DNA from: an uncultured beta proteobacterium
GTDB taxonomy: Bacteria > Pseudomonadota > Gammaproteobacteria > Burkholderiales > Burkholderiaceae_C
Direction of reading: 5' to 3'
NCBI GenBank assembly: GCA_903823025.1
Contig: CAIJRK010000003.1
Location: 80,078 to 144,077 of the forward strand
Length of the DNA stretch: 64,000 nucleotides
Under the pieces are notes generated by a model. That model searched no databases. It was not told where the DNA came from and worked only from the letters and a program-made list of their open reading frames with translations. Below, piece after piece: positions 13,900-34,941 of the stretch. Position numbers and translations under genes: made by a program. How positions within the stretch are numbered: the stretch's first letter is position 1; each line of letters starts with the position of its first letter.

Positions 13900-13964
13900 T
13901 GCAAGCTTGACTGACAGGGAGGTTGGGCAGTGGCTTGCTAAATTAAATAACTAACAGCACACTC

Positions 13965-16460: not shown

Positions 16461-16776
16461 ATTGACTGTAGATTCATAGATGGCTATTGCACATCGGTCT
16501 GAGCCGCTGGCGTGGTGGACACAACGAGTTTGAGTTCAGTCAAGAGCTTTCATGTGTGCTACCGATTGGCACACAATTTCAGACGCCAGATTTTTTCAAA
16601 ATCCTCTCGACGGATGTTACTCGGTACTGCGTTTTCTCATTCCCATATTTTCACGGGCTCAGAGATCGCGAACAGTCTCTTTTAGATTGTGTGTGTCGGC
16701 GCAAAGATTTGCCGCAGGGACATCGTGCGGGCTTTGGCTGAGAGAAGCAGGTGCTGGGGCATAAATATCGCACTTA

Positions 16777-16821
16777 TTTGTCATATATCTCATATGGCAA
16801 ATAAGTGCGATAGTATTTGAC
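16777..16821. promoter_or_regulatory. 20-bp inverted repeat upstream of the DUF6471-like/type ISP locus
   Basis: ATCGCACTTATTTGTCATAT-ATCTC-ATATGGCAAATAAGTGCGAT, 19/20 arm match, about 5-bp spacer. Confidence 0.65.
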
Positions 16822-16842
16822 GCATTGATATGGAACGATGCA

Positions 16843-17062
16843 ATGCGTGACGAAGATTGGAAAAAGTGGGCGACCAACACCATCAAGGCAGAACTGGCCA
16901 AAGTTGGTGTCGACTATGAAGAATTAGTGCGCCGTTCCGCTGCTATTGGTGTGCAAAAAAGCTATACCGCGCATTGCGGCCAAGATCAATCGTGGCACGT
17001 TTAGCTTCATGTTTTTCATGCAGTGCATGAAGGCATTAGGAAAAACCGAAATTCGGCTGTGA
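16843..17062 (+). pseudogene. DUF6471-like small regulator, frameshifted
   Basis: MRDEDWKKWATNTIKAELAKVGVDYEELVR... continues after a +1 shift near 16975 as IAAKINRGTFSFMFFMQCMKALGKTEIRL*; length 220 bp is not a multiple of 3. Confidence 0.6.
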
Positions 17063-17123
17063 CCTTTGCTGCTAAAGCTATCCAACACCCGGTGCCCACC
17101 GGCAACAAACAACAAAGTTACTC

Positions 17124-20100
17124 ATGACCACCACTTTTAGCGATCTACTCGACGAGCTGACCGAAGCAACCCAAACAAACCGCGACAAGGGCACACAATT
17201 CGAGTTGCTTATTGCCAATTATTTGAAGACCGATCCCCAATATGCAGACCGTCTCAGCGATGTTTGGCTATGGGGTGAATGGCCTGGTCGCTGGGGCAGT
17301 GATGATGGCATCGACATCGTTGCCCGTGAGCATGGCACTGGCGACTATTGGGCGATTCAATGCAAATTTTTCTTACCAACACATTCACTTCAAAAAGCCG
17401 ACATTGATTCGTTCTTTACAGCATCCGGCAAGCTCTTTACGGACAACGAAGCAACGCACAGTTTCAGTAACCGGCTGTTGGTATGCACTACTGATAAATG
17501 GAGTTCCAAGGCTGAGGAAGCGCTGAATGGCCAGACCATTCCGGTATCGCGCCTATGGTTCAAGGATTTGTCCGATAGCCCTATTGACTGGTCACAGTTC
17601 AGTCTCTCCAACATCAAGGATATACGTCTCAAAAAGAAAAAGGAACTCCGCCCTCATCAAAGTGAAGCCACCAGCCTTGTCATTGAAGGATTTTCTAGCA
17701 ATGATCGAGGCAAGCTCATCATGGCTTGTGGTACCGGCAAAACTTTTACATCACTGCGTCTGGCGGAACAGCTCACGCCGCCCAACGGGCGAATTCTATT
17801 TCTCGCGCCATCAATATCGCTGGTTTCGCAAAGCCTGCGCGAATGGACAGCCGAAGCGCTCACGCCGATTCATGCCTTTGTCGTTTGTTCAGATACCAAG
17901 GTTGGTAAGAATGAAGAAGATATTCGCACCCACGATTTGGCCTACCCGGCCACTACGGACGCAAACAAGTTAGCGTTAGCTGCTCAGGCCATTAGTGCCG
18001 ATCGGCGTACCGTGGTGTTTTCGACTTACCAATCGATTCAGGTGGTTGCAGATGCGCAGAAAAAAGGCTTTGGTGAATTCGACCTCATTATTTGTGATGA
18101 AGCACACCGCACCACGGGTCTGACCTTACCGGGTGAAGACGACTCAGAATTTAACAAGGTTCACCACAATCACATCGTTCGCGCCAAGAAGCGGCTTTAC
18201 ATGACGGCCACCCCCCGTATTTATGCCGATGCTTCAAAAACGAAAGCGGGCAAAAGTAATGCGGTTTTGTATTCGATGGATGACGTATCCACCTACGGTC
18301 CCGAGTTTTACCGTCTGGGTTTTGGTAAGGCTGTTACCAAAGATTTGCTGTCTGAATACAAGGTGCTGATCGTTGCCGTTGAAGAAAGCAAGATGGCAAA
18401 TCTGGCAAACGCATTCAATAACGCCTACAAAATTGACGGCAAGACGGCCATTGATATTCGCTTTGCGACCAAAATTATCGGTAGTTGGAAAGGGCTTTCA
18501 AAGCAGGGGTTAAAGCTGATCGCTGAAGACGGCCAAGAGGAAGCCATGACCGAGGACGTGGCCCCGATGCGCCGCGCAGTCGCATTCTCAAGAACAATCA
18601 AAGATTCGATTCAAACGAAAGATATTTTCGGCAAGCTGGTCACGTTGTATCAGCAGTCGCACACCGATGATGAGGACGGTAATTTGGCTCGGTGTACGCT
18701 TGGCCATGTGGATGGCGGCATGAATGCGCTAAAACGGCAAACCTCTATTGACTGGCTCAAAGGCAATGTAGACGAGGGTGAATGCCGAATCCTCTCAAAC
18801 GCACGCTGCCTGTCCGAAGGCATTGATGTTCCGGCACTCGATGCGGTGGTGTTTTTTGACACACGAGAATCTATTGTGGACATCGTTCAGTCAGTTGGTC
18901 GCGTCATGCGCAAGAGCGATGGAAAGAAATACGGTTACATCATCCTGCCAGTCTGTATTCCATCCGAGAAGGTCAAGGACTACAACACCTACATCGAGAG
19001 CGACCCGCAATTCAAAGGTATCTGGAAGGTCATTAAAGCCTTGCGTGCCCATGATGAATCATTGGTTGATGAGGCAGAATTTCGACGCAAGATCAAGGTG
19101 ATCGGTGAGGGTGCTGGCGGTGGTGACGACGGTGGCCACGGTAAGGGTTGTGGCGGCGGTACTTTGCCGTTGGACTTTCCCATGTTGCCCATTGATGCCA
19201 TTGGCGATGCCGTTTATGCAGCGATTCCCCAGAAGTTGGGCGACCGCGAATACTGGAGTGAATGGGCCAAGAGCGTTGCGACGATTTCCGACCGATTGAG
19301 TGAGCGTATCAGAAGTTTGTTATCCAATCCTACCGCAAGAAGTGCCTTTGACGGTTTTTTGAAGGGTTTGCGCGACAACCTGAATCCAGCCGTCAGTGAA
19401 ACCGATGCCATTGAAATGCTGGCCCAGCACATCATCACCCGTCCGGTGTTTGAAGCGCTGTTCGAGGGCTATTCATTCACGAAAAACAATGCGGTGTCGA
19501 AGGCCTTGCAATCCGTGACCGAGGTCATGGATGATCACGCAGTAAGCAGTGAAACCGAAAGTCTGGAAAAGTTTTACGCCAACATCCGTGAGCGTGTCAG
19601 TCTGGCAAAAAGCGACAAGTCACGTCAGGAAATCATTCGCAACCTGTACGACACTTTTTTCAATAACGCTTTCCCTCGCATGGCCCAGCGCTTGGGCATT
19701 GTTTATACGCCGGTGGAGGTGGTCGATTTCATCATCCACAGCACCGAGGCGGCACTACGCAAGCACTTCAAAACCGGCCTGACTGACAAGGGTGTTCAGA
19801 TCGTTGATCCCTTCACCGGGACGGGCACATTTATCGTCCGCCTGTTGCAGTCGGGTTTGATCAAACCCGAGGACTTGGCGCATAAATACCAGCACGAACT
19901 GCACGCCAATGAACTGGTCTTGTTGGCCTACTACATTGCCGCCATCAATATTGAAAGCAGCTATCACGCCCTGACCAATGAATATCGGTCTTTTGAGGGC
20001 ATCGTCTTGACCGATACCTTCCAAATGGGCGAGAACGATAAACAGCAAGACTTTGAAGGGTTTTCGCCGGAAAACAGCGAGCGAGTCAATCGACAGCGGC

Positions 20101-21926
20101 AGCAGGATATCCGCGTTGTTATTAGCAATCCCCCGTATTCGGCACAACAGGATAGTCAGAACGACAACAATCAGAATATTGGTTACCCGTCACTTGACGG
20201 GCGAATTCGCGATACCTACGCAGCCAAATCTGGTGCTGCAAACAAAAAGAATCTTTACGACTCCTACATTCGCGCTATACGCTGGGCCTCAGACCGCATT
20301 CATGAAAAGGGCATCGTAGCGTTTGTCACCAATGGCTCATTTCTGGATGCGAACAACATGGACGGGTTACGCAAATGTCTGACTGAGGAATACAGTCACC
20401 TGTACGTTTTCAACCTGCGCGGCAATCAGCGAACCTCTGGTGAGGAATCCAGAAGCGAGGGTGGGAAAATTTTCGGGTCAGGCTCACGCACTCCGGTTGC
20501 CATCACGCTGATGGTCAAAGACCCAGTACATTCTGGGCCTTGCGAGTTGCACTACCACGACATTGGTGACTACCTTAGCCGGGAGGAAAAGCTGGCCATC
20601 ATTGACGGCTTTGGCAGTATCGACGGCATGAATTGGCAAAGCCTTGCCCCCAATGCTGAGGGGGATTGGGCAGAGCAACGTGATCCGGCATTTGACAAGT
20701 TTCTACCGCTTGCAAACAAAGATGATGAGTTCGTCGGGTTGTTTGAAATTTGGTCGAATGGTTTACTTGCCGCACGGGATGCATGGGTTTACAATTTTTC
20801 TCGCGATGCATTAAAGCAAAACATGTCTCGAATGACGGATACCTACAACGCTGAAGTCGATAAGTATGCAAAAGTCTGTAGCGACAAACCTAAAGCTCAA
20901 TGGCCTAGTCCTGATAGTGTTGTGGATAGTGACCCGAAGAAAATTAGCTGGTCAAGCAGTCTGTTGCCGAATGTAGCCAGAGGTCGTAAAGCCACTTTTG
21001 ACTCCACTTCAATAGTTACCGGGATGTATCGCCCATTCAGTAAGTGTTATTTTTATTTTGACAGCTTGATGAACCATCGTGTGGCACAGTGGCTCCGACT
21101 TGCCCCAACATCAAGGCATTGGAATATTGTTATATCCGCTACGGGTATCGGTGCCAGCAAAACATTCTCCGCACTGGTTTCGACGTGTATTCCAAATTAC
21201 CACATGCACGACACCGGTCAATGTTTTCCCCTCTACTGGTATGAAAAATCAGAGGATATGCGCAAGTCCGCTGACGATATGTTTGCCACGACTGGCACTC
21301 CAGACGCTGATGGTTACATTCGCCACGATACGATTACCGATTGGGCTCTGGCTACCTTTCAAAAGCACTATGCCGATTCGACCATCATCAAAGAAGACAT
21401 CTTTTGGTACGTCTATGGCATCCTGCATTCACCTGAATACAAGCACCGGTTCGCCACCGACCTCAAGCGGATGTTGCCGCGCATCCCTTTCGCCGAAAAT
21501 TTCCATGCCTTTTGTGAGGCGGGACGGGCGCTGGGAAAATGGCACTTGGCCTATGAGTCGGTTGAACCCTATGCGCTGACCGAGGAAAGCAAGCGCCTGG
21601 TAATGGAACCAGGCGACTACCGGGTGACCAAGATGAGTTTTGGCAAAAAAGACGGTAAGCCTGACAAGACGGTCATTGTCTATAACGAGCATCTGACCCT
21701 GCGCGGCATCCCGATGCAAGCCTATGACTACGTGGTCAATGGCAAACCCGCCATTGAATGGATCATGGAGCGGTACGCCCAAACCACCGACAAGGATAGT
21801 GGCATCAAAAACGATCCCAATACTTGGTCAACCGATCATCGCTATATCGTTGATTTGGTTAAACGTATTGTGCGTGTCAGTGTTGAGAGTGCCGAGCTTG
21901 TAAAGAGTTTGCCAAATTTAAATTAA
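17124..21926 (+). CDS. Type ISP (LlaBIII/LlaGI-like) single-polypeptide restriction-modification enzyme
   Basis: 1600 aa: N-terminal Mrr-like nuclease (GIDIVAREHGTGDYWAIQCKFF), SF2 helicase (MACGTGKTFTSLRLAE, DEAHRT), N6-adenine MTase (FTGTGTFIVRLLQSG, NPPYSA), C-terminal target-recognition-like region. Confidence 0.9.
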   Translation: MTTTFSDLLDELTEATQTNRDKGTQFELLIANYLKTDPQYADRLSDVWLWGEWPGRWGSDDGIDIVAREHGTGDYWAIQCKFFLPTHSLQKADIDSFFTASGKLFTDNEATHSFSNRLLVCTTDKWSSKAEEALNGQTIPVSRLWFKDLSDSPIDWSQFSLSNIKDIRLKKKKELRPHQSEATSLVIEGFSSNDRGKLIMACGTGKTFTSLRLAEQLTPPNGRILFLAPSISLVSQSLREWTAEALTPIHAFVVCSDTKVGKNEEDIRTHDLAYPATTDANKLALAAQAISADRRTVVFSTYQSIQVVADAQKKGFGEFDLIICDEAHRTTGLTLPGEDDSEFNKVHHNHIVRAKKRLYMTATPRIYADASKTKAGKSNAVLYSMDDVSTYGPEFYRLGFGKAVTKDLLSEYKVLIVAVEESKMANLANAFNNAYKIDGKTAIDIRFATKIIGSWKGLSKQGLKLIAEDGQEEAMTEDVAPMRRAVAFSRTIKDSIQTKDIFGKLVTLYQQSHTDDEDGNLARCTLGHVDGGMNALKRQTSIDWLKGNVDEGECRILSNARCLSEGIDVPALDAVVFFDTRESIVDIVQSVGRVMRKSDGKKYGYIILPVCIPSEKVKDYNTYIESDPQFKGIWKVIKALRAHDESLVDEAEFRRKIKVIGEGAGGGDDGGHGKGCGGGTLPLDFPMLPIDAIGDAVYAAIPQKLGDREYWSEWAKSVATISDRLSERIRSLLSNPTARSAFDGFLKGLRDNLNPAVSETDAIEMLAQHIITRPVFEALFEGYSFTKNNAVSKALQSVTEVMDDHAVSSETESLEKFYANIRERVSLAKSDKSRQEIIRNLYDTFFNNAFPRMAQRLGIVYTPVEVVDFIIHSTEAALRKHFKTGLTDKGVQIVDPFTGTGTFIVRLLQSGLIKPEDLAHKYQHELHANELVLLAYYIAAINIESSYHALTNEYRSFEGIVLTDTFQMGENDKQQDFEGFSPENSERVNRQRQQDIRVVISNPPYSAQQDSQNDNNQNIGYPSLDGRIRDTYAAKSGAANKKNLYDSYIRAIRWASDRIHEKGIVAFVTNGSFLDANNMDGLRKCLTEEYSHLYVFNLRGNQRTSGEESRSEGGKIFGSGSRTPVAITLMVKDPVHSGPCELHYHDIGDYLSREEKLAIIDGFGSIDGMNWQSLAPNAEGDWAEQRDPAFDKFLPLANKDDEFVGLFEIWSNGLLAARDAWVYNFSRDALKQNMSRMTDTYNAEVDKYAKVCSDKPKAQWPSPDSVVDSDPKKISWSSSLLPNVARGRKATFDSTSIVTGMYRPFSKCYFYFDSLMNHRVAQWLRLAPTSRHWNIVISATGIGASKTFSALVSTCIPNYHMHDTGQCFPLYWYEKSEDMRKSADDMFATTGTPDADGYIRHDTITDWALATFQKHYADSTIIKEDIFWYVYGILHSPEYKHRFATDLKRMLPRIPFAENFHAFCEAGRALGKWHLAYESVEPYALTEESKRLVMEPGDYRVTKMSFGKKDGKPDKTVIVYNEHLTLRGIPMQAYDYVVNGKPAIEWIMERYAQTTDKDSGIKNDPNTWSTDHRYIVDLVKRIVRVSVESAELVKSLPNLN

Positions 21927-22192
21927 GCAAACGGATTTTTGACTACCTTGACAGGCTTTAGCTTCACCGTATCTGGAAGCTGCTTCTCCGCCTCCAGTGC
22001 CTTGACGATACGGCCAATGAGCGATTGCAGCTCTTTGGCCAGCGTCAGGCCCGCTTGGTCTTTGGTGAGCACCACGTCACCTGTGATTGACACGCGATCG
22101 ACCCGGTTCTCAATCTCCAAGTCACCGATGCGCAGCACATCACTTTCGTTGGCGTAAGGCTTGAATTCTGATGTCATAGCTGAGTTCCTCAA
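21923..22192 (-). CDS. Small conserved-looking hypothetical protein
   Basis: 89 aa; ATGA-type overlap with the upstream endonuclease gene. Confidence 0.6.
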   Translation of the reverse strand: MRNSAMTSEFKPYANESDVLRIGDLEIENRVDRVSITGDVVLTKDQAGLTLAKELQSLIGRIVKALEAEKQLPDTVKLKPVKVVKNPFA

Positions 22193-23064
22193 GGTTGAAG
22201 GGCGCGTTTGATGGCGTCCATGATGCTGCGGGAGAGGTCACGCAGCGTAAATTCATCTTCGGTTGGACTCTTTGGCTTGTTACCCCCGCGCGAAGAGGTC
22301 GGTTTTGGCAGCGCCATGCCACTGTCTCGGATTTTCTGGGACAGCCCCGGCAAGGCACTGACACCAATCATTTTCTCCAGATCGGAGACCGAGATCGAGG
22401 AATAATCACGGGTATCGTCGTTCGTGATCACGTAGGCTCCAGCCCGCTGTTGGGCAGGGCTGTAGAGCACTTTCCAAAGATGTGTCGGCACCAGCACGTT
22501 TCCGATACGCTGAATATCGTTGCCGATAAAAGCAGGCCCCGACACCACATAAACTTCACCTTCGTTGAGCGCCAGTTGTCGCGCCGACTTTTCAATACCA
22601 GCCCAGACCCCCGCATTGTTGGCATGTATTTGCGGAACCATGTTGGCCAGTGAAAACGATTCTGCTTGCGCTGATCGGGTAGCGAAATCGGCATTGGGGG
22701 CCATGTGCCCACGATCGTAGCCCGAGCGGGCGTAGTCGCGCAGTTCAGCCCGATCCTGAGTGGGTAAGGCGCTCTCAGCATGAAATGAATCCTTCCTGGA
22801 TAGCGTCTTTGCCGCCACCAGATTAGCCCGTGTCAGGTGCTCGGCTGAGTAGAGGGGGGTTCGGCTGATACCGGAGTGCAACACAGCGAAAGCCTCAAAG
22901 CAGACCTCCTGTGTACGAGCCTGTAGTTTGGGATTAGTGATGGTGGGCGCAACGCCGCTGGCGAAGTGTGCAGAACATTGAGTAGCAGCAGCCCAAGTCG
23001 GCATCGCAAGGCAGGCAACCAGAGACAAAGTAAGCGGGAGAAATCGTGACATGAGCAAGAGTAC
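22189..23064 (-). CDS. DNA/RNA non-specific (NUC1-type) endonuclease with signal peptide
   Basis: YDRGHMAPNADFATRSAQAESFSLANMVPQIHANNAGVWAGIE; N terminus MSRFLPLTLSLVACLAMPTWAAA looks like a signal peptide. Start approximate. Confidence 0.88.
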   Translation of the reverse strand, partial: VLLLMSRFLPLTLSLVACLAMPTWAAATQCSAHFASGVAPTITNPKLQARTQEVCFEAFAVLHSGISRTPLYSAEHLTRANLVAAKTLSRKDSFHAESALPTQDRAELRDYARSGYDRGHMAPNADFATRSAQAESFSLANMVPQIHANNAGVWAGIEKSARQLALNEGEVYVVSGPAFIGNDIQRIGNVLVPTHLWKVLYSPAQQRAGAYVITNDDTRDYSSISVSDLEKMIGVSALPGLSQKIRDSGMALPKPTSSRGGNKPKSPTEDEFTLRDLSRSIMDAIKRALQP

Positions 23065-23135
23065 GTAGTAAGGCATGGACAGCTTGATGTGAAACACATC
23101 CGTTGCAGCTTAAATTTAAGCGACACTAACAAGCA

Positions 23136-23399
23136 ATGAACAGATATTTAACGATTCTCGCGTATTTCGCACTCATTTCGTTGGTTTCTACGGTCAGTCC
23201 TCCTGCTTCCGCCCACCGAAGTGGGTGTCATCGGTGGCACAGTTGCCCCTCGGACACGGGTAGTTATGTCTGTGGCGACACAGGACACAGTAACGAATGC
23301 GGGCGATCTGACGTAGTCTCAGCTTCCCGAAAAAACGCTCATAGCTCTAAACTGTCGGCCAAACCAGCACGAGCACTGAACAACCACCTACTTAAGTAG
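23136..23399 (+). CDS. Small secreted Cys/His-rich protein
   Basis: Signal peptide then HRSGCHRWHSCPSDTGSYVCGDTGHSNEC. Confidence 0.6.
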   Translation: MNRYLTILAYFALISLVSTVSPPASAHRSGCHRWHSCPSDTGSYVCGDTGHSNECGRSDVVSASRKNAHSSKLSAKPARALNNHLLK

Positions 23400-23550
23400 G
23401 TGGGTTCGCGCGGGTCGCAGAGGACTGGAAGTCCACCCGATTCGCTCCCCGCGCTGGGGATGCAATTGCGAATACTTGTGTGGTTCATCCAACGCCAAAG
23501 AGAAGAAATAGCATGGCTAAAGCTGACCGGCTGGAAGCCGGTGGTTTTAA
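23382..23550. mobile_element. Possible IS200/IS605-type remnant or MITE (two terminal hairpins, no ORF)
   Basis: Perfect palindrome CCACCTACTTAAGTAGGTGG at 23384-23403, and hairpin ACCGGCT-gga-AGCCGGT at 23526-23542 followed by GGTTTTAACC. Confidence 0.35.
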
Positions 23551-24092
23551 CCTTGTGATTGAAAATAAAAAATTCTGGCACCGGTCAACTTTATCCGAAG
23601 CCGACCGTCAAAATTGAAAGTCAGCAATGGAGCGCCACGTACTTCGGTTGGGCAGCGATTGCGGGTATTGACGACTGGCAGCTTGATGGCAGCCCAATTG
23701 CATGATTTTCGATGCCGGTGTGCCGCCGCTCACAGGCTTCGGCATCGTGCCCGAAGCGGTCAGCCGCCGCTGGATGGAGCAGTCATTCGCCGACGCTGTC
23801 GGTTACAGACAGCGGACATTCGCCATGCAGGTATGGGTTTCATCCACTGGGCGGCTCATGTGCAGCGTTAGCGGGTACTGACTAACGGCTGCTTTCTTGA
23901 AGTGCAGCAACAAAACTTTGGGCGCAAGACAGCAGTTATTAATGTCGGCCAGACATGGTGCAACAAACTCCAGCCATTCGCCTGTTGAAATTGCGTTCCT
24001 TCAATTAGTCATTCAGTTTCCAGGCGCTGGTTCATATCAATGAAAAGAGGTGAGAAGAAATACGGTTAGTGCGCATCTTCCCCCTTACTTAT

Positions 24093-26783
24093 TCAAGCTA
24101 CCAACCAAGCCTCAGTTGCACGCAATGCATTTCCGGTTCGGCTTGGATCGAATTTGAACGCGAGTTCAACGCCTGGAGCAAGTAGCCCTCGCTTCTGCCA
24201 ATCTCCATTGTCGAAAACGTCTAAATGAACAAAATAATCTTCTCCTGCATGGTCTTGCACAAAAATATAGCTTGTTTCGCCACGCATGCCATTTTTCACC
24301 CGACCAAACGTAAAGCCGTTCTTTTGAAAATTGCTTCGAGTGGCTTCATCTGGCGCAAGTTCTTGAGCCTGGCCGCCAATTTCAGTGAAAAGTGATATCA
24401 GTATCGATATCTCTTTTGAGTCTATTCCTTTTCGATTTGCATCATTCGAAAGACAAAAACGAAGTAGGTTAAGAATTGCTGTGCGATTTTCCTGTTCGAA
24501 ATCACAAAAATTGACCCCGCGAGTATCGTAATACCGAATTTCATTACTCAGCTTTCGGAGTTCCGGCATGAGCCACTTTTGGAAACCTTCAGCGATAATG
24601 GTTTTCAACATTGGTTTCGAAGCCTTTGCAAGCAGGTTGCCAAGCCGACGTGTATCGCATTCGTGCTTTCTGAATTCCTCGTCTGCTTGCCGCCTATACG
24701 CAGATGCGCGTCCAATTGCCAAGCTTGGCAAGCTATCTAGTTTTGCTTCCCAATCTGCTGTTGAATCAAAGACTTCGCTAAATTTTTCAGCAATATTTGC
24801 ACTGTGCAGGAAAAGCCCCCAAATTCGATTCGCATGATGCTCACCGGCCTTTTCTGTAGAGCCCCAGCCCCCATTTATAAGACTCTTGGTTACTTGGTAG
24901 AGTTCACTAATGTTATGCCGCTGATACGCTAAGGCCAATCCAAACATCGGTGCGGGGTCATCAGGGTTGAGTGCACATGCACGCTTAAATTGATTGACAG
25001 CGGTAGCATGGTCATCAAGTTCGAACGTTGCCCTAGCATAAAGACGGCATAAGAAAGATGAGTCGGATTCCGCAAATAGCTTATGACGAAGTTCCCCTTC
25101 AATTTGAACCAGTGCTGCTCGATCTTCACGTTTAACGGCTGCCTTTATTTTCTTTGATATGGCAATTAGTGATGCAGGTGTGTTTGACGGAATGTAGTTA
25201 AGATCTACCGGAGAAATATTCCGTTCTAACTGAAGTTTTAGCGCTGATTCAGCGGTTGCTTTGCTCTGCATTAGCCACTCTGCCGCTTTCGATCGCATTG
25301 CGAGGTTTCGCGGGTGCGACCTAAGTAGATCACGTATTGAACTTCCGAGAGAATAGACTTCTGAGTTATCAGCTTCAAGCCTGGTAAGAAGGGACGTCTT
25401 TGAGAGTTTGGAAATTGCCTCTGCCGCTTCATCAACGCTACATTCCAAAGCGCCGCAAATTTCTGATCGGTTTGGGGTATCCAGCGCAAACACTGTCTCA
25501 AGTACTTGATTTTCTAATTCGGAAAGCTGGTCCAGCAGGCTCGTAAACGAGAAGGCCAATACGTCTTTTTCAGACTTTTGCAAAGCCTCCGATATTTCAG
25601 CGCCAGAGACATAAAGATCAATAGTAATGCGTATTGCCAGCGGGTTGAAGTTACACCCGATGGCAATTCTTTCCAGCAGGTCATTATCCTTTGTAGGATG
25701 CCCTTTGCTGCTCAGATATGCCCTAGCCAAGGCGATTGCCCCTGACTTGTCTAAGACGCCCAACGGAACATTCTTGGCACTATCAACAGGAATTCGGCTG
25801 GTTACTACAACTTTCCAGTCTTCTGGCAATTCCTCATAGAAGGAATTAAAAGTTGTGGGCGAGTCACGTAAGAGAGTTTCCAAATTGTCCAAGCAAAGAA
25901 GTAGTCTTTTCTTACGTAGCCTATCTTTCAATTGTTCAAAACTATTGAAATCCTCTCCAAATATCTCTGACGCCTCCTTGCAGAGAATGTCTTTCATATC
26001 CTCCAGGCCGGCCGGAGCAGTGAGTATTTGAACCCCCGTCGATGTAAGTCTTTCCTGCTTGAATGAGGTCCACAAAACACCGTCAAAGAATTGTGCTGAT
26101 TCGGTGGAAAGACAAAAATCAGATACCACTTGCTGCATAAGACTTGTCTTTCCAACCCCTCCCTTTGCAACCAGTGCTATTAGTGGAGCGCGTCGGTTTT
26201 TCAGTTCCTTTTGAAGAACTGCAATGTCCCTAGCACGGCCAACCAAACCAGTTATTGAATGTTCGAAATCTGCTGGCAGAACAGCTGGGACTGACCAACG
26301 CTTTTTGTACATCCAGTCTTCTGGTGGCTCCTGTAGAGTTCCCTGGTCTGCATTCTGGAATGCAAGAGAGACTTCAAAAAATCCTAGCGCGTCAATAGTC
26401 GGGTCGACAGCAATAGTCGCGCAGCGATACCAAAAACAATCAGGAAACGGTCGATTTGGATGACTGATTGCATTCCGAATATCAAATATTTCGAGCGCCG
26501 TACTTAATTTTTCAAGAGACGCTAAAAAAGCCGCATCAGAAGTTCCAACTGCACAAATTTGGGCTAATGAAAACACTTCGCCAAGATATGAGTTTTCAAC
26601 GATTAAACGAGATTTATGCGTTGAGTCAACATCGTTCGCTATGCTTGAACGAGTAAGGATCATTTTCCCCGTCTCAGTGTGGGAGGCTTGCGAGCCTTTT
26701 TCCCTAACATACCGGCCCAATGCGCGCTCCAATTCGTAGACAATCATCGCGCATTTGATTCTTGCTATTGAGTGCTGTTCCAA
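24093..26783 (-). CDS. STAND (NB-ARC-like) NTPase with N-terminal HEPN-like motif, TPR region and C-terminal cold-shock-like domain
   Basis: 896 aa: RNAISH (R-x4-H, residues 103-108); Walker A ALVAKGGVGKTSL, Walker B RLLLCLDNLE; TPR-like FLCRLYARATFELDDHATAVNQFKRACALNPDDPAPMFGLALAYQ; C-terminal FGRVKNG..SYIFVQDHAGEDYFVHLDVF..LAPGVELAFKFDPSRTGNALRATEAW. Confidence 0.8.
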   Translation of the reverse strand: MEQHSIARIKCAMIVYELERALGRYVREKGSQASHTETGKMILTRSSIANDVDSTHKSRLIVENSYLGEVFSLAQICAVGTSDAAFLASLEKLSTALEIFDIRNAISHPNRPFPDCFWYRCATIAVDPTIDALGFFEVSLAFQNADQGTLQEPPEDWMYKKRWSVPAVLPADFEHSITGLVGRARDIAVLQKELKNRRAPLIALVAKGGVGKTSLMQQVVSDFCLSTESAQFFDGVLWTSFKQERLTSTGVQILTAPAGLEDMKDILCKEASEIFGEDFNSFEQLKDRLRKKRLLLCLDNLETLLRDSPTTFNSFYEELPEDWKVVVTSRIPVDSAKNVPLGVLDKSGAIALARAYLSSKGHPTKDNDLLERIAIGCNFNPLAIRITIDLYVSGAEISEALQKSEKDVLAFSFTSLLDQLSELENQVLETVFALDTPNRSEICGALECSVDEAAEAISKLSKTSLLTRLEADNSEVYSLGSSIRDLLRSHPRNLAMRSKAAEWLMQSKATAESALKLQLERNISPVDLNYIPSNTPASLIAISKKIKAAVKREDRAALVQIEGELRHKLFAESDSSFLCRLYARATFELDDHATAVNQFKRACALNPDDPAPMFGLALAYQRHNISELYQVTKSLINGGWGSTEKAGEHHANRIWGLFLHSANIAEKFSEVFDSTADWEAKLDSLPSLAIGRASAYRRQADEEFRKHECDTRRLGNLLAKASKPMLKTIIAEGFQKWLMPELRKLSNEIRYYDTRGVNFCDFEQENRTAILNLLRFCLSNDANRKGIDSKEISILISLFTEIGGQAQELAPDEATRSNFQKNGFTFGRVKNGMRGETSYIFVQDHAGEDYFVHLDVFDNGDWQKRGLLAPGVELAFKFDPSRTGNALRATEAWLVA

Positions 26784-27244
26784 AGCGTTCCCCCTAAATT
26801 GTTATTCTGGATCGAAAATTCAACCGCTTCACCGCAAGTATCGCCGTTTTCGTCGTAGTAGACACCCCCAACAAAATTCAGAAATCAATGTCAGGTATCG
26901 GGCAAGCAGTTTCGGAAGTTGTATAGCCGCTTCGGGTCTGTTGAAGTCAGTGGCCGTGAAAATCGACATTTTCTTGCTCGGTGTCTGCAAGAGACCCATA
27001 CCCGACGCTCACCGGAACCGCATGAATCCCGCCGAAAAGTGGAAAGCTGACTTTCAATTTCGCCGGAAGCAGTCGCTCATCCTCGAGGCCAAACAATTGA
27101 AAGCGGGCGGCCAAACGGAGATGCGAATTTACTTGACTGTGCGGCTCCTGGGCAGCGGTTGCGATCCTTTACAAATGACTGTTTTCACGACAAGTATATA
27201 GATTGATCTCCGTGGTGCCATGCTGACGCCACGGAGTTGGCAAA

Positions 27245-27380
27245 TCAATCCTTTGTCCGCTCAGTCATTTCAAGGTCATCCTCTACTTCAATGCCCAAGT
27301 AGCGTACCGTGCCCACTAGCTTGGTGTGCCCCAAGAGCAATTGCACAGCCCGAAGGTTCCTGGTTCGTCTGTAAATGACC
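27245..27380 (-). pseudogene. Tyrosine recombinase (integrase) C-terminal fragment
   Basis: Minus strand reads RRTRNLRAVQLLLGHTKLVGTVRYLGIEVEDDLEMTERTKD*, the conserved C-terminal region of phage-type integrases. Confidence 0.65.
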
Positions 27381-27392
27381 TACGCTGGCGAT

Positions 27393-27605
27393 TTAGGGGG
27401 TCTTGCCGTGTCCGGGTATGCCAGGTGCGGGTGATCGGCCGCCGCCGGACACTCCGCCGGTCGTGCTGGGTCGCCCGCCCCAGCCAGTTCCTGTTCCTGT
27501 TCCTGTTCCTGTACCATTGGACCCGCCACCCCACCCACCGTTTCCGCCTTTGCCGCTTCCCTGTGCACTCCCTGCCTTACTACCGCCTACGCTACCTTTT
27601 GCCAT
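27393..27605 (-). CDS. Small glycine-rich protein with (GT)n repeat
   Basis: MAKGSVGGSKAGSAQGSGKGGNGGWGGGSNGTGTGTGTGTGWGG...; hexanucleotide tandem repeat (gttcct on + strand) near 27487-27511. Confidence 0.45.
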   Translation of the reverse strand: MAKGSVGGSKAGSAQGSGKGGNGGWGGGSNGTGTGTGTGTGWGGRPSTTGGVSGGGRSPAPGIPGHGKTP

Positions 27606-27713
27606 GAAAATCACCTCTTGCAACGCCCCGAGCCGACCGAATGGCGGCGTTCTTGTCGGGCGTCGGGATTGATCTTGCAACGAATTAAGTTGACCGACAG
27701 AGGAAACGTGGAA

Positions 27714-28745
27714 ATGCATATACCAACCGTTGGTCAGATACTTCAAAACGGGCTGAGCCAGCCATTTCAGCCGCTCACCCTGCGTCGTTCGATGGAGCTG
27801 TTCCCAACCGCCCTGGGACTTGAGCCGCTCAAATCCGACCTTCCGTGCGACGACTTTCTTGCCAACTTCCTGAGCGGGCACCGGACGTACCTGGCCATCA
27901 TCCGCAATGGTTTCGGGAAGGATTTCAAGAACTTCAAAAACTACGCGTTGCAGAGGGTGGAGACGACGTCGGCGGTTCGCCAGCGGCTACTGAAAGCCGT
28001 GGATGAAAGCGAAGAACTGCTGGCAATTCTGGCGAACGGAATGCTTGAGGGTGACTTGATCGCGCAACTTGCGCAGCTGACCCGGGCCGCGGAAGGCACG
28101 CTATACCAAGTGATGCGAACACTCTCATCTGGGTCGCTGAAGTGCCCACACTGCCAAGCCGAATTGATTTCCAGACCAAAGCAGTGGTGGCGTGAGCAGG
28201 CCTGCGAATTGGGTGAGGCGGAATATTGCTTCGTCGACCGGATCCTGTACGACGCACTGGCCATGACATTGCTTCCCTTGGTCTTCGGGTCCAATTGTGT
28301 CCAGAAGAAACAAGCCGTGGAGCAGCTAGCCGGCCTGTGCGATGCCGGTGCCAACTTGTTCGGGAATTGGTTAGTCCTCGTACGGCACGCTTACCGGGCA
28401 AAAGACTTAGCAGCGCTGGCCACCCGGGCGGGTCTGTACGGTCCTTCCCCAGACAGCCACCTGCAGCGATGCGCCCGTGGTGAAATGCTTACGGCCGATA
28501 CGATCCAAGCGGTCACGGCGCGGCTGAAAAACCCAGTGCCACTGCGAAACCTCGGCATGCGCATACGTGTCCTGGCATTTGCCATTGACTTCATTGTCGC
28601 TGCGGACAGTGGCGCATCTCCCTTGGACTGGTCTGCCGCACAGGCTATCGTGAGGGTTCGAATCCTTCGGTTGTTTCAAGACCTACAACTCAGCTTCACG
28701 ACGGGCGTTCGACGTGAAACGACATCGGCCGAGATGACCGCCTGA
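27714..28745 (+). CDS. Hypothetical protein with zinc-ribbon-like CPHC
   Basis: Likely start MHIPTVGQILQNGLSQPF; LKCPHCQAELISRPKQWWREQ; long open frame with no convincing alternative. Confidence 0.6.
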   Translation: MHIPTVGQILQNGLSQPFQPLTLRRSMELFPTALGLEPLKSDLPCDDFLANFLSGHRTYLAIIRNGFGKDFKNFKNYALQRVETTSAVRQRLLKAVDESEELLAILANGMLEGDLIAQLAQLTRAAEGTLYQVMRTLSSGSLKCPHCQAELISRPKQWWREQACELGEAEYCFVDRILYDALAMTLLPLVFGSNCVQKKQAVEQLAGLCDAGANLFGNWLVLVRHAYRAKDLAALATRAGLYGPSPDSHLQRCARGEMLTADTIQAVTARLKNPVPLRNLGMRIRVLAFAIDFIVAADSGASPLDWSAAQAIVRVRILRLFQDLQLSFTTGVRRETTSAEMTA

Positions 28746-28929
28746 TTCCCGTCCGCAAATGATTGCCTCTGGCCGTCACAAGCCGCCAGGCTTAGCTGCC
28801 GGCAGCTGAAGCTGGATGTCGCCTATCGGACGCCACAGTGTTCGACGCCTGTGGGCCATATCCAGCCATTCGCCAACGGCAGCTTTGTGGGAAGTTCAAT
28901 TCCCACGTATTTCCTGTTTGTTACCTGTC

Positions 28930-29023
28930 ATTCAACGCCCTCGGTAAGCTGGGCCGGAGCGCGAAGCGCGGAGGGCACCAACGACTGCAAGCCGTTGGCG
29001 TCCGCTTGACCAACCAGTTAGGC
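28930..29023. repeat. attC-like integron recombination site
   Basis: R''-like ATTCAAC at 28930, R'-like GTTAGGC at 29017, imperfectly complementary inner arms (GTAAGCTGGGC / GTCCGCTTGAC). Confidence 0.5.
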
Positions 29024-29037
29024 CGGTTTTTATGATG

Positions 29038-29631
29038 CTATTGCGCATGTGTGTGCCGTTTTGCGCGCTCTCTTCGCCAGGCCTCAAGGAGCGCGGTGTT
29101 GCCACCTGCGACTTCCAGGAGCATTTGAAGGGAAAGGATTGCTCCCGGAATAATGCCCTCTTCATCGACCTCTGCATTCGCGTAGTCTGGATTGGTTGGA
29201 ATTTCAACGTTGACTACCCACCATACTTCAATCTTTCGCAGAAGCTCAATTAAAACGTGGAACTGGTCTGTGTGGTTGGACTCCGCTAGGCCCGTAACTA
29301 CCGCGAAGATTTGGTGAGCGAGAAGATTTCTGCTCTTCTTGAGTATCTCGAAAGTTTTTAAGACTCCGTCGTTTATTTCTTGTTGCTCAAGAAGCCAGTT
29401 GAGAGATGCGTAGACCGCGCTTTTGTTGCGCGCAAGAACCTTTGCTTCGTACTCGGGACAAACAGTCCAACCTTCTTCCGAGCAACCAAGTGAGTAAAAG
29501 TCTCGGATGCGATCAACTATTGAGTTCTTGAGAATCTCAAAGGTGGTGATGAACATCGTGGTCATGAAGAGCGACGGCCTGACCACGTCCGGATCGAGGA
29601 AGCGTTCCCAGCGTTCTTCGTGTGCGCTCAT
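29038..29631 (-). CDS. Hypothetical cassette-like protein with HEPN-like R-x4-H
   Basis: 197 aa; KKSRNLLAHQIF motif in a helical context. Confidence 0.5.
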   Translation of the reverse strand: MSAHEERWERFLDPDVVRPSLFMTTMFITTFEILKNSIVDRIRDFYSLGCSEEGWTVCPEYEAKVLARNKSAVYASLNWLLEQQEINDGVLKTFEILKKSRNLLAHQIFAVVTGLAESNHTDQFHVLIELLRKIEVWWVVNVEIPTNPDYANAEVDEEGIIPGAILSLQMLLEVAGGNTALLEAWRRERAKRHTHAQ

Positions 29632-29763
29632 AAAAGGCCTAATGAATGAAAGGGACTTCCCCGTCCCAAGCTATCCGCGCCCCGTCAGGGTTGCGGTTTA
29701 TGGCAAATAATGGACAGGATGGAGAGGGGAATCTTTTCATCAACTCAATTGAGATGGGAAATC

Positions 29764-29850
29764 ATGGCTATCGTAACCGTTGGAATCAACCTCGCAAGAA
29801 CGTCTTTGCCGTCCACGGTGTGGACGAGTCTGGCAAGCCGTACCGGAACA
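29764..29850 (+). pseudogene. IS110-family transposase 5' fragment
   Basis: Reads MAIVTVGINLA(shift)KNVFAVHGVDESGKP, matching the IS110 N-terminal ITVGIDLAKNVFAVHGVD pattern. Confidence 0.6.
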
Positions 29851-29911
29851 TAGCGGAGGCCACCAACGACGAAACTGTTAACGTCAGCTTGACCAACCAG
29901 TTAGACAACGA

Positions 29912-30511
29912 TTATGTGGCCCGAATGTGAGCTATGAGAGAGGACGCAAGCTCGATATAGGTTCGTGCTTCGGCTTCGCTAAGGTTCAGATTAATCGCAT
30001 GTGCTGCTTTGTTGCGCAGTTCGTGCAACTTGTTAAAGATGGCCAATTGCTTCTCGTCGATTACCTTACATTTCAACAGATAGTTGCCAAGCCGGAGGTC
30101 GTTCTTGAATACGTCGCTTGGTGGCTGATTCCAGAATGAGCTGGCTACTGCCATAGATACCGACTCTAGCTCTGACCAGGCTTCAAGTATTGCCGCGCTC
30201 GCTGAGATAGACGCGATATTGAGTAGGCGATTGCTGGACGTACTCAATGCTGGCGGCTGCGATTTCTGGCTGATCGTGGATTCGGTCGCTGCAAACTCTG
30301 ACTTGAGCTGTGCAAGTTCTTTTGAGAATTCCAACTCAATTTCTTTGTACTTGAGTTTGCGTAGAAATGGGAGTAGCTCGATCACAGGCTTGCGAACCAT
30401 TAAGGCGACGAGCACCACGGCTACTGGCCAAGCTAGCGCCTTGATCGTTTCTGCTGCGAACGTAAGTGCATCCATGGTGTAATTTTTGAGTTGCCTAACG
30501 AGGCTGTGCAA
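29912..30511 (-). CDS. Membrane-anchored hypothetical protein with HEPN-like R-x4-H
   Basis: 199 aa; N-terminal TM helix (IKALAWPVAVVLVALMV), C-terminal ELRNKAAHAINLNLSEAEARTYIELASSLIAHI. Confidence 0.5.
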   Translation of the reverse strand: MHSLVRQLKNYTMDALTFAAETIKALAWPVAVVLVALMVRKPVIELLPFLRKLKYKEIELEFSKELAQLKSEFAATESTISQKSQPPALSTSSNRLLNIASISASAAILEAWSELESVSMAVASSFWNQPPSDVFKNDLRLGNYLLKCKVIDEKQLAIFNKLHELRNKAAHAINLNLSEAEARTYIELASSLIAHIRAT

Positions 30512-30639
30512 AAGCCCTGATTGCGCGTGGCGCCAACAGGTTGATCGGATACGGATTTGATTTCATCGCCTGGCGCCCCCTTTTATTGCTTCTCAGTTTT
30601 TTTTGCACCCATTCTCGCATCGATGCGGTCTGGTCAAGC

Positions 30640-30790
30640 TCTTTTGGAACTTGCATGGCTCATCTTATCGCCCTCTTCGGTAGCCATGGTGCGCCAAATT
30701 TTCAATGTTGTGCACCAGGCAGTACAGATTCCACAGGGTGTGCACCTTACCCAGAAGCCGAGCCCACTTCGAGCCATGATCGCGTGCGAC
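30640..30790 (-). pseudogene. Transposase C-terminal fragment (IS5/IS1182-like)
   Basis: Minus strand reads SKWARLLGKVHTLWNLYCLVHNIENLAHHGYRRGR*. Confidence 0.5.
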
Positions 30791-30860
30791 GAGTATTTGA
30801 TGGAGCGAGGAGAGGAGGCCAGACTTCGGTCTCGGTTAAAGTAACGCAACGGGAGAAACT

Positions 30861-31499
30861 TTGGCTTCAAATCATGAATATGCGGTAATCGGCCATAGCC
30901 GCGCAATGGTCGGCCGATTCCTCGGAATCGTGGCGGGACTGGTCAGTTCAGGTCTAGCCGTTCTAATCGCCACCGCAATAACTTATGCTGAAAGTTGGGG
31001 ATTTTTGCACGCCCGCACGTATTGGACATTGCCTCTGACAGCGGCAATTTTCTACACCGTGGGTCACTTGGCCTTTGACAAGTGGGCCTGGAGAACGTGG
31101 TTGGTCCATTTCATTCTGGATATTCCTGACTTGCGTGGCAAGTGGGACTGCGTCGGCGAAACCCTTGATCCCAATACCGGTGCGGTAACGTACACTTGGA
31201 CTGCGGAAGTCACGATTTCGCAGGGCTGGGAAAAGATCAGGATCTACTCCCAAACGAAGCAGTCGCGTTCGCGTAGTGTTGCCGCTTCCATCTTGGTGGA
31301 AGAAGACGTTGGCTATATCCTGATGTACAGCTACCGCAACGAGCCGGGCCCCGGTGAACCTGAACTGAAGGCGCACCACGGCTATGCAGAATGGCACATC
31401 ACTTCTGATGGAACCTCCGCCGATGCGACCTACTTTAACGGTGGAGGCCGCTATACAGGCGGCCGCATGAAACTTACGAGGAAGACACGTGGCAACTGA
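30861..31499 (+). CDS. cap15: CBASS effector Cap15-like (two-TM, beta-barrel)
   Basis: Two N-terminal TM helices then IPDLRGKWDCVGETLDPNTG..TAEVTISQGWEKIRIYSQTKQSRSRSVAASI..LMYSYRNEPGPGE..HHGYAEWHI..ADATYFNGGGRYTGGRMKL; overlaps a CD-NTase gene. Start could be ATG 30906. Confidence 0.8.
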   Translation: MASNHEYAVIGHSRAMVGRFLGIVAGLVSSGLAVLIATAITYAESWGFLHARTYWTLPLTAAIFYTVGHLAFDKWAWRTWLVHFILDIPDLRGKWDCVGETLDPNTGAVTYTWTAEVTISQGWEKIRIYSQTKQSRSRSVAASILVEEDVGYILMYSYRNEPGPGEPELKAHHGYAEWHITSDGTSADATYFNGGGRYTGGRMKLTRKTRGN

Positions 31500-32595
31500 C
31501 TACTCAACCCGCCTTGGCAGAGTAAACGAACGACGTAACAACACCGCTGTTGCTAGTCTTAGTAAGAGCGCCTCGTTCGCCGAGAACAGCGCTTTTCTTG
31601 ATTCCGTGACAGAAGGCTATCGGAACAAGACAAAGTCCAAGAGCTTTCAGTATGCTCTGGTGTCCATGCAGGAGGTGGATGCGCAATACACCGCCATCAG
31701 CTATCGTGAGGCCGAAAGGGTCGCAAAGCAGATTGATTCAGGACTTATAAGACGCGGCAAGTATGTGACGATCGAACTCCAAGGTTCACTACCATTGAAT
31801 GTGCATTTGAGACGTGTGAGCGACGTCGATATGCTCGTATGGCCGTTGACCTTCTTCATCTTTGATAACTATGGGGTTGCTGCTTCCAGCTACACCGTCA
31901 GCACGAACAACACTGTTTCCGAAATATCCTCCTTGCGTTCTGAATGCTGCTCGGTGATCCGATCTTCATTTCCTGCGGCGAAGGTCGATGACTCTGGGGC
32001 GAAGTGCATCACGGCGTCAGAGGGCTCTCTTCTCCGTGAGATTGATATTGTTCCATCCGTTTTGTACAAGACTGCGGCCTATCAAAGAACGAATAATGAC
32101 GAGGACAGAGGGGTTCAAATCTGCGACAAGAAGACGAATGAGCTGATCACGAACAACCCATTCAAAGTGCGTTCCTTGATCAATGCGAAGGAAGGCCGCA
32201 CAAGCGGCGGGTGCAAGAAAGCCATTCGCTTGCTCAAAAACATGAAGGAGGACTCCGATACTTCGATTGTTCTGTCCAGCTTCAACATCATGTCGCTCGT
32301 CTATGCGATGCAAGACTCCGACCTCGTGCACGTGTCCTACTACGAGGGCAAAATCGTCGCCTCGCTGCAAAACTGGTTTTATTCTCTTGCGCATGACGAA
32401 AGTTATTTGAGACGGCTCGACACCGTGGATGGAAGCCGGAAGGTCGTGCAGTCGGCGGCTGATGTCACTGCGGTTTCGCAAATGTCTGATGAGCTGAACA
32501 CGCTTGTGTTGCGAATGGCGCAGGAGTTGCAGCCCGACATTCCCACCAGCTTCCCTGCGTGGCGAGCCAAGGTTGAAAGCGAGTTTTTGATCTAG
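31489..32595 (+). CDS. CBASS cGAS/DncV-like nucleotidyltransferase (CD-NTase)
   Basis: ELQGSLPLNVHLRRVSDVDMLVWP (GS...DVD nucleotidyltransferase motif); GTG start overlaps the cap15 end. Confidence 0.8.
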   Translation: MATDYSTRLGRVNERRNNTAVASLSKSASFAENSAFLDSVTEGYRNKTKSKSFQYALVSMQEVDAQYTAISYREAERVAKQIDSGLIRRGKYVTIELQGSLPLNVHLRRVSDVDMLVWPLTFFIFDNYGVAASSYTVSTNNTVSEISSLRSECCSVIRSSFPAAKVDDSGAKCITASEGSLLREIDIVPSVLYKTAAYQRTNNDEDRGVQICDKKTNELITNNPFKVRSLINAKEGRTSGGCKKAIRLLKNMKEDSDTSIVLSSFNIMSLVYAMQDSDLVHVSYYEGKIVASLQNWFYSLAHDESYLRRLDTVDGSRKVVQSAADVTAVSQMSDELNTLVLRMAQELQPDIPTSFPAWRAKVESEFLI

Positions 32596-33202
32596 CGGTG
32601 GAGTGCCTCCTCGGGCTGGACCAGATCTGATACGCTGGCAGGGTCTTCACGAGGGGGATACTCCAAATACTGGTGGTTAGTGGGTCACTTCTGGATGGGA
32701 TTCAACAGCCAGCCAATGACTGCTGATGTTGACGTCTAGCTAACGCATCTGGCCGAGTCCGGCCCGACACATCTCAGAATCCAGGGACAGCAAACGTTGC
32801 ACAAGCGAAGTTCACTCAACCAGAGTGTTTTTACTGATTGAATGACTGCAATCGGCACATTAAGTTTTCACGGTGGATGACAGCTTTGGGTCGGTAAGAG
32901 TCAGTTGCCGGAAAACTGCGCACTTTTCAGCTTGAAGGATGGGTCCAGACCCTTATGTACAGTTCCCAGTTATGAACAGTTTGATTCGGTAGTTCGCGTG
33001 GAAGCCGCGTGGATTTGGCATCGAAAGAATCCCTTCTGCCGCCCAGACTCCTAGATACTGAATTCACCGATTTCGTTAGACCCGGCCTAATCAGCATTGC
33101 ACTGGTGGCCGAAAATGGCCGCGAGTTTTACGCCGAACGGACGGACTATCACAGGGATGCCTTGCGGTGCCTTTGTACAGGAAACTGTGCAGCCCTTGCT
33201 GG

Positions 33203-33639
33203 TGTTGACTCAAAATAAAGTTCTATCCCAACGAATAAACTTCTATCCTGAGTAATAAAGTCCTGTCCTGATGACTAAATTTGCTACCCAAGTGGTGTAC
33301 TTTTCATGAGATTTTCGATTCTCCTGACTGCGTAATTTTTGGCCTTCTCAAGTGTTTCAATGTCTTTTTCTGAATCATCACCAAGATCGTCAAAAAGGGA
33401 CTGAAGATCAGCGTCTCTAACCATCGCTGCCGCCATTTCTAGCGCTTTTCGGTTGGCTTCACGTTGTTTTAATGCCATTATTTTTCCTTTTGGGATAGAA
33501 CTTTATTTTGTGCGTTCTGTGTTTTGAGCAGTTGTGATGCAATTCAGGATAGAACTCTTTAATTTCACCGTTGAGTGTTGTTCTATGTAAATCAACGACT
33601 TACAACAGCTTCAAGATAGAACTTTATTTGTCGCTAACA
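33203..33639. mobile_element. 437-bp non-autonomous mini-Tn7-like element nested in the island
   Basis: TGTT...AACA termini, perfect 5-bp TSD GCTGG (33198-33202 / 33640-33644), TnsB-type sites AATAAAGTTCTATCC at 33214, 33234, 33254 (exact 20-bp period) and inverted at 33493, 33547, 33614; excision rejoins the exonuclease reading frame. Confidence 0.88.
33284..33478 (-). CDS. Small hypothetical protein, sole ORF of the mini-element
   Basis: 64 aa MALKQREANRKALEMAAAMVRDADLQSLFDDLGDDSEKDIETLEKAKNYAVRRIENLMKSTPLG between the two sets of TnsB-type sites. Confidence 0.5.
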   Translation of the reverse strand: MALKQREANRKALEMAAAMVRDADLQSLFDDLGDDSEKDIETLEKAKNYAVRRIENLMKSTPLG

Positions 33640-33999
33640 GCTGGGGCGTGTACCTGGTGCGGCTTGTAGCCGATCTGAGTTAACGAAACGTCTGCATGTG
33701 TGGTTTGAACAGTTGCCAGAGTCCGCCACCATCATTTACGACTTTAAAAGTGATTGGCTGTTGCTGGCGGATGCCTTCCTTGGCTGTGCTTACAGAAATC
33801 CCCCCGCCAATTTTGGCGAACCGCTGCACTTGAGGAACTCCAGTATTACTCACCCGGTCTTTGAGCGGGCATAGAACCGCATCTACACCCAAGATTGGCC
33901 CCCACACCATGCTCTGGCTGATAGCGGGCTATCGTGCCTGGCACCAGTTCATGGAGAAGATTTGGAGGATCGAATAAAAGTTAGTGATATTCCGATGAC

Positions 34000-34197
34000 T
34001 TGGCGAAACGGCATGACGTTGTGTATGTCAAGACCGGAAGCAACGCTTTGGCGCAAGTGATTACACGTCTGGCAGGCTACGATGGAAATCCAGATGAAAC
34101 TGAAAAGCTCGTTATCGCTCTGCGCCGCGCCAATATCATCAATGGGCCGACTGCGGTAACGCTTCTCGGACGCTACTTTGATGAGCTGCGCAATTGA
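34000..34197 (+). CDS. Small hypothetical protein
   Basis: 65 aa open frame directly after the exonuclease remnant; weak evidence. Confidence 0.3.
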   Translation: MAKRHDVVYVKTGSNALAQVITRLAGYDGNPDETEKLVIALRRANIINGPTAVTLLGRYFDELRN

Positions 34198-34288
34198 AAA
34201 TCATACTTACCGAAATCGACAGCACACCATCGAGCGCAGCAACCAATAGACACGGCACCGCACGGCGATGCAGATTGTGGTGGAGACG

Positions 34289-34657
34289 TTACGCGCTCAT
34301 AGCGATGGCCGATGCCTTGGCGATATTCTCACTGGTCAACAAATGGAGTTGGTCACGATTGGTTGCAGTGGCCCGAATAATCTCTAATCGCCGCTCGGTA
34401 GATAGCACGCAGGACACTGGCGAGGCTTGCCGCAACTGGTTGCCGCGCTCATCCGTACCCAACGCAGTGACCCAATCCCGTTCTCTGAGAATTCGCACCC
34501 ATTCGTCTCGCAAGGGCTTGGAGCAAACGCTGACATGGGTATCCCACCGTGCCAATCTATCTAGCACCTGCTTAATCAGCGTTTCGTCCCCTCGCATCAA
34601 CTCAATGGCAGCAGTGTGCAGCGCGAGGCTTCTGGTGTCTTGTTCCTGATGGTGCAT
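34289..34657 (-). CDS. Hypothetical protein
   Basis: 122 aa MHHQEQDTRSLALHTAAIELMRGDETLIKQVLDRLARWDTHVS... Confidence 0.45.
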   Translation of the reverse strand: MHHQEQDTRSLALHTAAIELMRGDETLIKQVLDRLARWDTHVSVCSKPLRDEWVRILRERDWVTALGTDERGNQLRQASPVSCVLSTERRLEIIRATATNRDQLHLLTSENIAKASAIAMSA

Positions 34658-34941
34658 AGTGATGAAGATTTTGCGCCAAATGTCCTCTGGTTACCGGTGA
34701 CGGTGCCAGGGCAGAATGATTGGTTGCTAAATGGTTGCACTCACAACAAACTGCAACCTTTTCGCAACCTTTCTAAGGTAAACATCACTTACCGCAATCA
34801 TTTGGCAACATTGTTCGCATTGCTCCAGATATTTTATTGTCAACAAACTGTCAACGGCATAGCTGGATAAAGCACGGGTAATGCTGTTTTAGACTGTGTT
34901 CTGAGTTCTTTGTGCCTGACAAAGCAGGGTCTAATGCTGTT

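Follow-up and report, generated by a model that had tools for sequence, protein, structure and literature searches.

What is the function of an 896-residue protein that joins an apparent RNase motif, an NTPase of the STAND class, a TPR-like segment and a cold-shock-like tail in a single chain, and why does its gene sit where it does? The gene lies in a 64,000-nucleotide stretch of a contig from an uncultured beta proteobacterium, referred to here as the window. Our analysis suggests that its product is probably an antiphage sensor and effector in one NLR-like (STAND) protein, which would bring about abortive infection through a predicted HEPN RNase.

Domain order, NTPase switch and family distribution

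From the N to the C terminus, the protein comprises a HEPN-like domain with the motif R103-N-A-I-S-H108, an NB-ARC/STAND NTPase, a TPR region and a cold-shock domain (CSD) with an OB fold (Table 1). An AGGGGG Shine-Dalgarno-like stretch directly precedes the TTG start codon. A reading made from the sequence alone had listed the R-x4-H motif, a P-loop, a Walker B motif and a CSD-like tail, and all of these are present, the P-loop as GGVGKT (residues 208-213) and Walker B as DNLE; its NB-ARC-like and TPR-like assignments are matched by Pfam hits to NB-ARC at residues 190-385 and to TPR_11 at residues 585-622. The Pfam scan of the 896-residue protein recognized neither a HEPN domain nor a CSD, NCBIfam and PADLOC gave no family assignment, and the sole match among the PADLOC models of known systems was to PDC-S27, over 43 P-loop residues (E 0.0012). 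Because the features recur in relatives of approximately 30-45% identity from several phyla, they exceed what chance would produce, and the multidomain open reading frame is confirmed as a real feature.

Table 1. Positions, in window coordinates, of the gene, its predicted domains and motifs, and the transposon that carries it.
Feature	Position	Strand	Basis
Tn7-like (Tn6022-like) transposon carrying the gene, in comM	8733..41115		GCGGT target-site duplications at 8728-8732 and 41116-41120
Whole open reading frame	24093..26783	-	896 aa plus stop, TTG start; 28 loci with same-length homologs
N-terminal all-helical HEPN-like effector domain (predicted), residues 1-160	26304..26783	-	AlphaFold2 pLDDT 83.5, core >90; HEPN-like motif context
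R103-N-A-I-S-H108, predicted RNase motif Rx4H	26460..26477	-	R, N and H shared by all 29 aligned sequences
NB-ARC/STAND NTPase and following helical region, residues 180-500	25284..26246	-	Pfam NB-ARC, E 5.5e-8
Walker A, residues 206-213 (AKGGVGKT)	26145..26168	-	G208, G209, G211, K212 and T213 invariant
Walker B-type DNLE, residues 299-302	25878..25889	-	Invariant in 29/29
TPR-type superhelical region, candidate sensor, residues 501-820	24324..25283	-	Pfam TPR_11, E 3.5e-6
C-terminal cold-shock-type OB fold (predicted), residues 821-896	24096..24323	-	pLDDT 90.8; Foldseek top match CspA

The NB-ARC match of the central switch exceeds the Pfam cut-off and is found in 27 of the 29 family members, the Walker A, Walker B, TSR and NPL motifs expected of STAND/NB-ARC proteins are invariant or nearly so, and the family profile matched the plant NLR 8yl6 over residues 188-387 (E 6.3e-6).

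Homologs were collected in several ways. Searching plasmids by tblastn returned a full-length homolog of approximately 30% identity, present in six Acinetobacter baumannii plasmid records and carrying both RNAISHPNR and a matching C-terminus, and a profile of the two N-terminal domains led to two Vibrio members. When a four-row alignment was run against 85,462 species genomes, at least 33 loci were obtained, including these two Vibrio members, a count that is a floor because each match needed one of two 8-residue seeds. The loci belong to Pseudomonadota, Bacteroidota, Cyanobacteriota and Myxococcota, and an Acidobacteriota MAG contributes an N-terminal fragment. The family is nevertheless sparse: profile and protein searches of several hundred genomes from the same class, family and phylum found secure members elsewhere only in Vibrio. 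When genomes were searched with the entire protein or a full-length profile, matches outside the window were confined to generic STAND or TPR stretches, and neither single-protein scans of viral and genome contigs nor one alignment scan of viral contigs gave matches. Apparent matches in two further genomes (G1184 and G951) were rejected, as they are located among unrelated genes.

Proteins from 28 of the loci align end to end with the window protein (n = 29 in all). The tree of the family is largely congruent with phylum, with Bacteroidota in one group and Pseudomonadota in two; the window protein falls with Sideroxydans, Burkholderia and a Burkholderiaceae MAG in a separate, fully supported Pseudomonadota group. 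Three other members are incomplete: that of Wohlfahrtiimonas (L071, 8995-11908) is broken by an early stop, an N-containing stretch and later frames, that of V. anguillarum (L067, 9001-10653) is truncated near a contig end, and that of Microbulbifer (L079, 9010-11295) ends before the CSD and adjoins a transposase-like open reading frame.

Across the 29 sequences, invariant columns number 23 of 188 in the N-terminal part, 34 of 312 in the NTPase, none of 320 in the TPR region and one of 76 in the CSD, while R-N-x3-H, Walker A and DNLE are kept in every full-length protein. A conserved effector and switch combined with a fast-diverging C-terminal half is the pattern of NLRs and thus supports an NLR-like sensor. 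In STAND immune proteins, a ligand bound at the C-terminal half causes nucleotide-dependent oligomerization, which turns on the N-terminal effector, and an antiphage function has been validated for STAND proteins whose N-terminal effectors differ from this one (PMC9122126). Since HEPN RNases usually act as dimers (PMC13092281), oligomerization would be a natural route of activation. In the mechanism that we propose, the resting protein would be nucleotide-bound and inactive, restrained by its C-terminal TPR-CSD half. That half would bind a cue from the phage, be it a protein, a nucleic acid or a nucleoprotein; nucleotide exchange would drive oligomerization through NB-ARC, and this would pair the N-terminal HEPN-like domains; the R103/N104/H108 site would then cut RNA, stopping translation and aborting the infection. 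We infer a true HEPN RNase, a phage trigger, activation by oligomerization and the identity of the sensing part.

The TPR region and cold-shock-type domain as candidate sensors

The OB fold that the sequence-only reading had placed at the C-terminus is borne out by structure prediction. AlphaFold2, run on the 29 sequences, modeled the last 76 residues as a five-strand OB fold, and Foldseek against the PDB ranked CspA (1mjc) first (E 2.8e-4, prob 1.00, TM 0.74/0.81), followed by many other CSDs. The family HMM matched a CSD-family protein in the PDB (2kcm, E 9.6e-4), and hhalign aligned the family with a CspA sequence over 46 columns (probability 52%, E 1.4e-4), a result of supportive weight only. 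The Pfam CSD profile (PF00313) found no match in the window protein or the family. At the aromatic positions of RNP1/RNP2, F841 is present in 29/29 members, F or Y851 in 28/29 and H853 in 16/29. Homologs that were found without a motif seed likewise keep the C-terminal motif where they are full length. The models thus give good support to a CSD-like C-terminal domain, and binding of nucleic acid by the predicted CSD is plausible. Separately, a PF00313 scan of the 3.47-Mb host genome, with positive controls, detected no cold-shock protein, which would be unusual if real.

Which part of the C-terminal half would read the phage? The TPR region is the fastest-diverging part of the protein, and as judged from sequence it is at least as likely a sensor as the CSD; the conservation pattern as a whole points to the entire C-terminal half reading the cue. 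A distinct possibility, which we hold tentatively, is that the same HEPN-STAND immune protein divides these tasks, with the TPR region reading a phage protein and the CSD docking the activated RNase on the ribosome, mRNA or tRNA. An arms race would be expected to leave a sensor devoid of invariant columns, as the TPR region is, and the CSD fold is retained in all full-length members. There are precedents in the DnaJ/phage-protein sensing of bNACHT25 (PMC12169576) and in the TPR sensing proposed for TIR-STAND-TPR proteins (PMC9122126). On the other hand, the CSD residues vary too, with a single invariant column, so that the CSD may itself be part of the sensor.

Taken further, the CSD would be a direct ssRNA or ssDNA receptor for phage nucleic acid that switches on an NLR-like oligomer with HEPN output, close to what the sequence-only reading had suggested. 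We regard direct reception by the CSD as doubtful but conceivable. If true, it would constitute a one-gene bacterial nucleic-acid-sensing NLR with RNase output, in formal parallel to eukaryotic RNA sensing coupled to RNase L. The bacterial NLR-like proteins characterized to date mostly sense phage proteins. A widespread, coherent family in which an NB-ARC switch links a predicted RNase effector to a terminal nucleic-acid-binding fold is well suited to asking whether sensing of nucleic acids occurs among bacterial STAND proteins.

The N-terminal HEPN-like domain

The AlphaFold2 model of the N-terminal domain is all helical (pTM 0.78). R103 lies within a helix (residues 99-106) and H108 in the loop preceding the next (residues 116-125), and the motif of HEPN domains has been described in just such a setting, where a helix gives way to a loop (PMC3710099). 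R103-N104...H108 fits the HEPN pattern Rx4-6H with a polar residue after the arginine, and an acidic residue is found upstream of R-N-x3-H. Each of R103, N104, H108, P109 and N110 is present in 29/29 aligned full-length proteins. One of the search seeds was [IV]RNA[IV][SAC]HPN, so that selection by the search explains part of the motif's invariance in the 33 loci; the homologs found without a motif seed (the A. baumannii plasmid protein and the two Vibrio proteins) also carry R-N-x3-H, as does one locus whose RNTIAHPN (L066) falls outside the seed pattern.

Foldseek of the N-terminal model against the PDB and a viral library (BFVD) returned no significant match and none to a HEPN, and hmmsearch of PDB sequences with the family HMM found no HEPN. 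Against nine Pfam HEPN_Swt1 domains, Swt1 being the HEPN type compared in this way, hhalign gave a probability of 1%, although its register puts RN...H on RN...H. The sequence-only claim of a HEPN-like N terminus is therefore upheld by the motif and the helix layout but not by Foldseek, hmmsearch or hhalign, and we use the label "HEPN-like" because it rests on motif and layout in place of a fold match.

These negative searches are what would be expected if the domain were some other helical effector or an adaptor, perhaps of death-fold-like type, and its R-x4-H a coincidence. Placing the invariant residues at random would produce Rx4-6H approximately 3% of the time. Foldseek, however, performs poorly on small helical bundles, and the arginine, the asparagine after it and the histidine are conserved jointly, at a helix-end/loop position typical of HEPN and with the acidic residue upstream. 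Moreover, a 2013 survey assigned proteins with this architecture to HEPN (PMC3710099). We therefore consider a coincidental motif improbable; on the motif and the model, the most likely identity of the N-terminal domain, very probably the correct one, is HEPN.

Transposon carriage and relation to known systems

The gene is cargo of a complete-looking element of 32,383 bp (32.4 kb). Its termini read TGT...ACA and bear GTCGCA repeats, and the 5-bp sequence GCGGT is duplicated on either side. Removal of the element restores comM to a continuous frame of 512 codons, and comM is an established target of Tn6022-type Tn7 elements (PMC10293859). The right end encodes TnsA, a Mu-transposase-type (TnsB-like) gene product, TniB and TniQ; a gene adjoining tniQ (34942-36402, 486 aa), without a Pfam match, may be a targeting gene of the TnsF or TnsE type. 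The cargo of Tn7-like elements includes many defense genes, HEPN proteins among them (PMC8649781). Here the other cargo comprises a type IIG restriction enzyme-methyltransferase, CBASS and PDC-M30/M41-like proteins. This defense-island location accords with the sequence-only reading, and carriage by a transposon and by plasmids, beside CBASS, type IIG R-M and PDC-M30/M41-like genes, supports a role in defense.

Several further features of the element were recorded. In the CBASS operon (30861-32595, plus strand), the gene for a 2TM Cap15-type effector precedes that for an oligonucleotide cyclase (CD-NTase). Two genes on the minus strand encode small R-x4-H proteins, one with RNLLAH (29038-29631) and one with RNKAAH and a weak HEPN_RiboL-PSP match (29912-30511; E 2.5e-4); as judged from their motifs, these may bring the number of HEPN-like proteins on the element to three. 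An S24 peptidase-like regulator, a DUF5131 protein and two PDC-M30A-like proteins (12521-16460) form a candidate defense module. A DNA/RNA non-specific endonuclease gene (22189-23097, minus strand; PF01223, E 1.5e-47) adjoins the type IIG R-M gene and has a small open reading frame (21923-22192) just downstream. Between the CBASS and transposition genes lies a perfect 21-nt inverted repeat (33211-33231 and 33490-33510, 258 nt apart), possibly a small non-autonomous element.

In raw tallies made with no control set, the flanks of the homologs contain integrases, IS elements and matches to GajB, PDC-M12, PDC-M29, type IIG R-M and CBASS-type phospholipase, together with many housekeeping genes. 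A conserved neighbor was sought across the family loci, and none occurs in more than three, the commonest being of transposase type. Given that no neighbor recurs, the gene appears to work alone, and a multi-gene system was rejected. Near the Vibrio renipiscarius homolog (L043) lies what looks like a Gabija-type pair (13260-16035, minus strand), made up of one gene for a UvrD-like helicase and one for an OLD-type ATPase/Toprim-like protein, with integrase and recombinase genes on the opposite side of the homolog. A non-defense role, in the maintenance of a plasmid or transposon, as a toxin-like stabilizer or as a MalT-like STAND regulator, would suit carriers that are plasmids and a transposon and has a parallel in the STAND protein MalT, a transcription regulator (PMC10427625), but it is highly improbable for a protein that lacks a DNA-binding output domain, has neither an antitoxin-like nor a regulated neighbor, carries a conserved nuclease-like motif and is encoded on the same element as CBASS and R-M genes.

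A single-protein antiphage sensor-effector has close relatives among known systems. Like Avs and other STAND/NLR-like antiphage proteins, among them the TIR-STAND-TPR proteins of P4 satellites (PMC9122126) and bNACHT25 (PMC12169576), the window protein has an N-terminal effector, a central STAND NTPase and C-terminal repeats, and it is likewise encoded by a single gene in a mobile defense locus. Their known effectors are TIR, SIR2 or DNA nucleases, whereas the window protein has a HEPN-like domain and an additional C-terminal CSD. CoCoNuT type IV restriction systems, with predicted RNA targeting, also combine CSD-like OB folds, an NTPase and, in some types, HEPN nucleases, but they have a McrB-type AAA+ GTPase, coiled coils, multi-gene operons and a CSD at the N terminus of CnuB (PMC11090510). 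Both CoCoNuT and the MoxR-vWA ternary systems were rejected on architecture. DS-11 (CBS-HEPN) is a one-protein defense system as well, and its HEPN nuclease has been proposed to be under the control of a ligand-binding domain, which is CBS in place of STAND-TPR-CSD; the likeness is drawn from architecture (PMC13092281).

The closest precedent was described in silico by Anantharaman et al. (2013; PMC3710099), who listed, with no system name, bacterial proteins with an N-terminal HEPN, a STAND-ATPase, TPR and an S1/CSP-like OB domain, among them Npun_F6454, MED222_16016, Desac_1927 and a Bacillus cereus protein (gi 229028907). These have the same domain order as the window protein, and Vibrio and Nostocaceae are hosts in both sets; compared by architecture and host, the window protein likely belongs to the same family. 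The earlier statement that the architecture matches no named defense system thus stands, although the architecture itself has a precedent. In the open-licence literature, we found no paper that names or tests a HEPN-STAND-TPR-OB protein as a defense system. The window protein therefore adds a member of a kind already predicted. As a single gene, it makes the 2013 sequence-based prediction testable, and because the family occurs in at least four phyla, the result would generalize.
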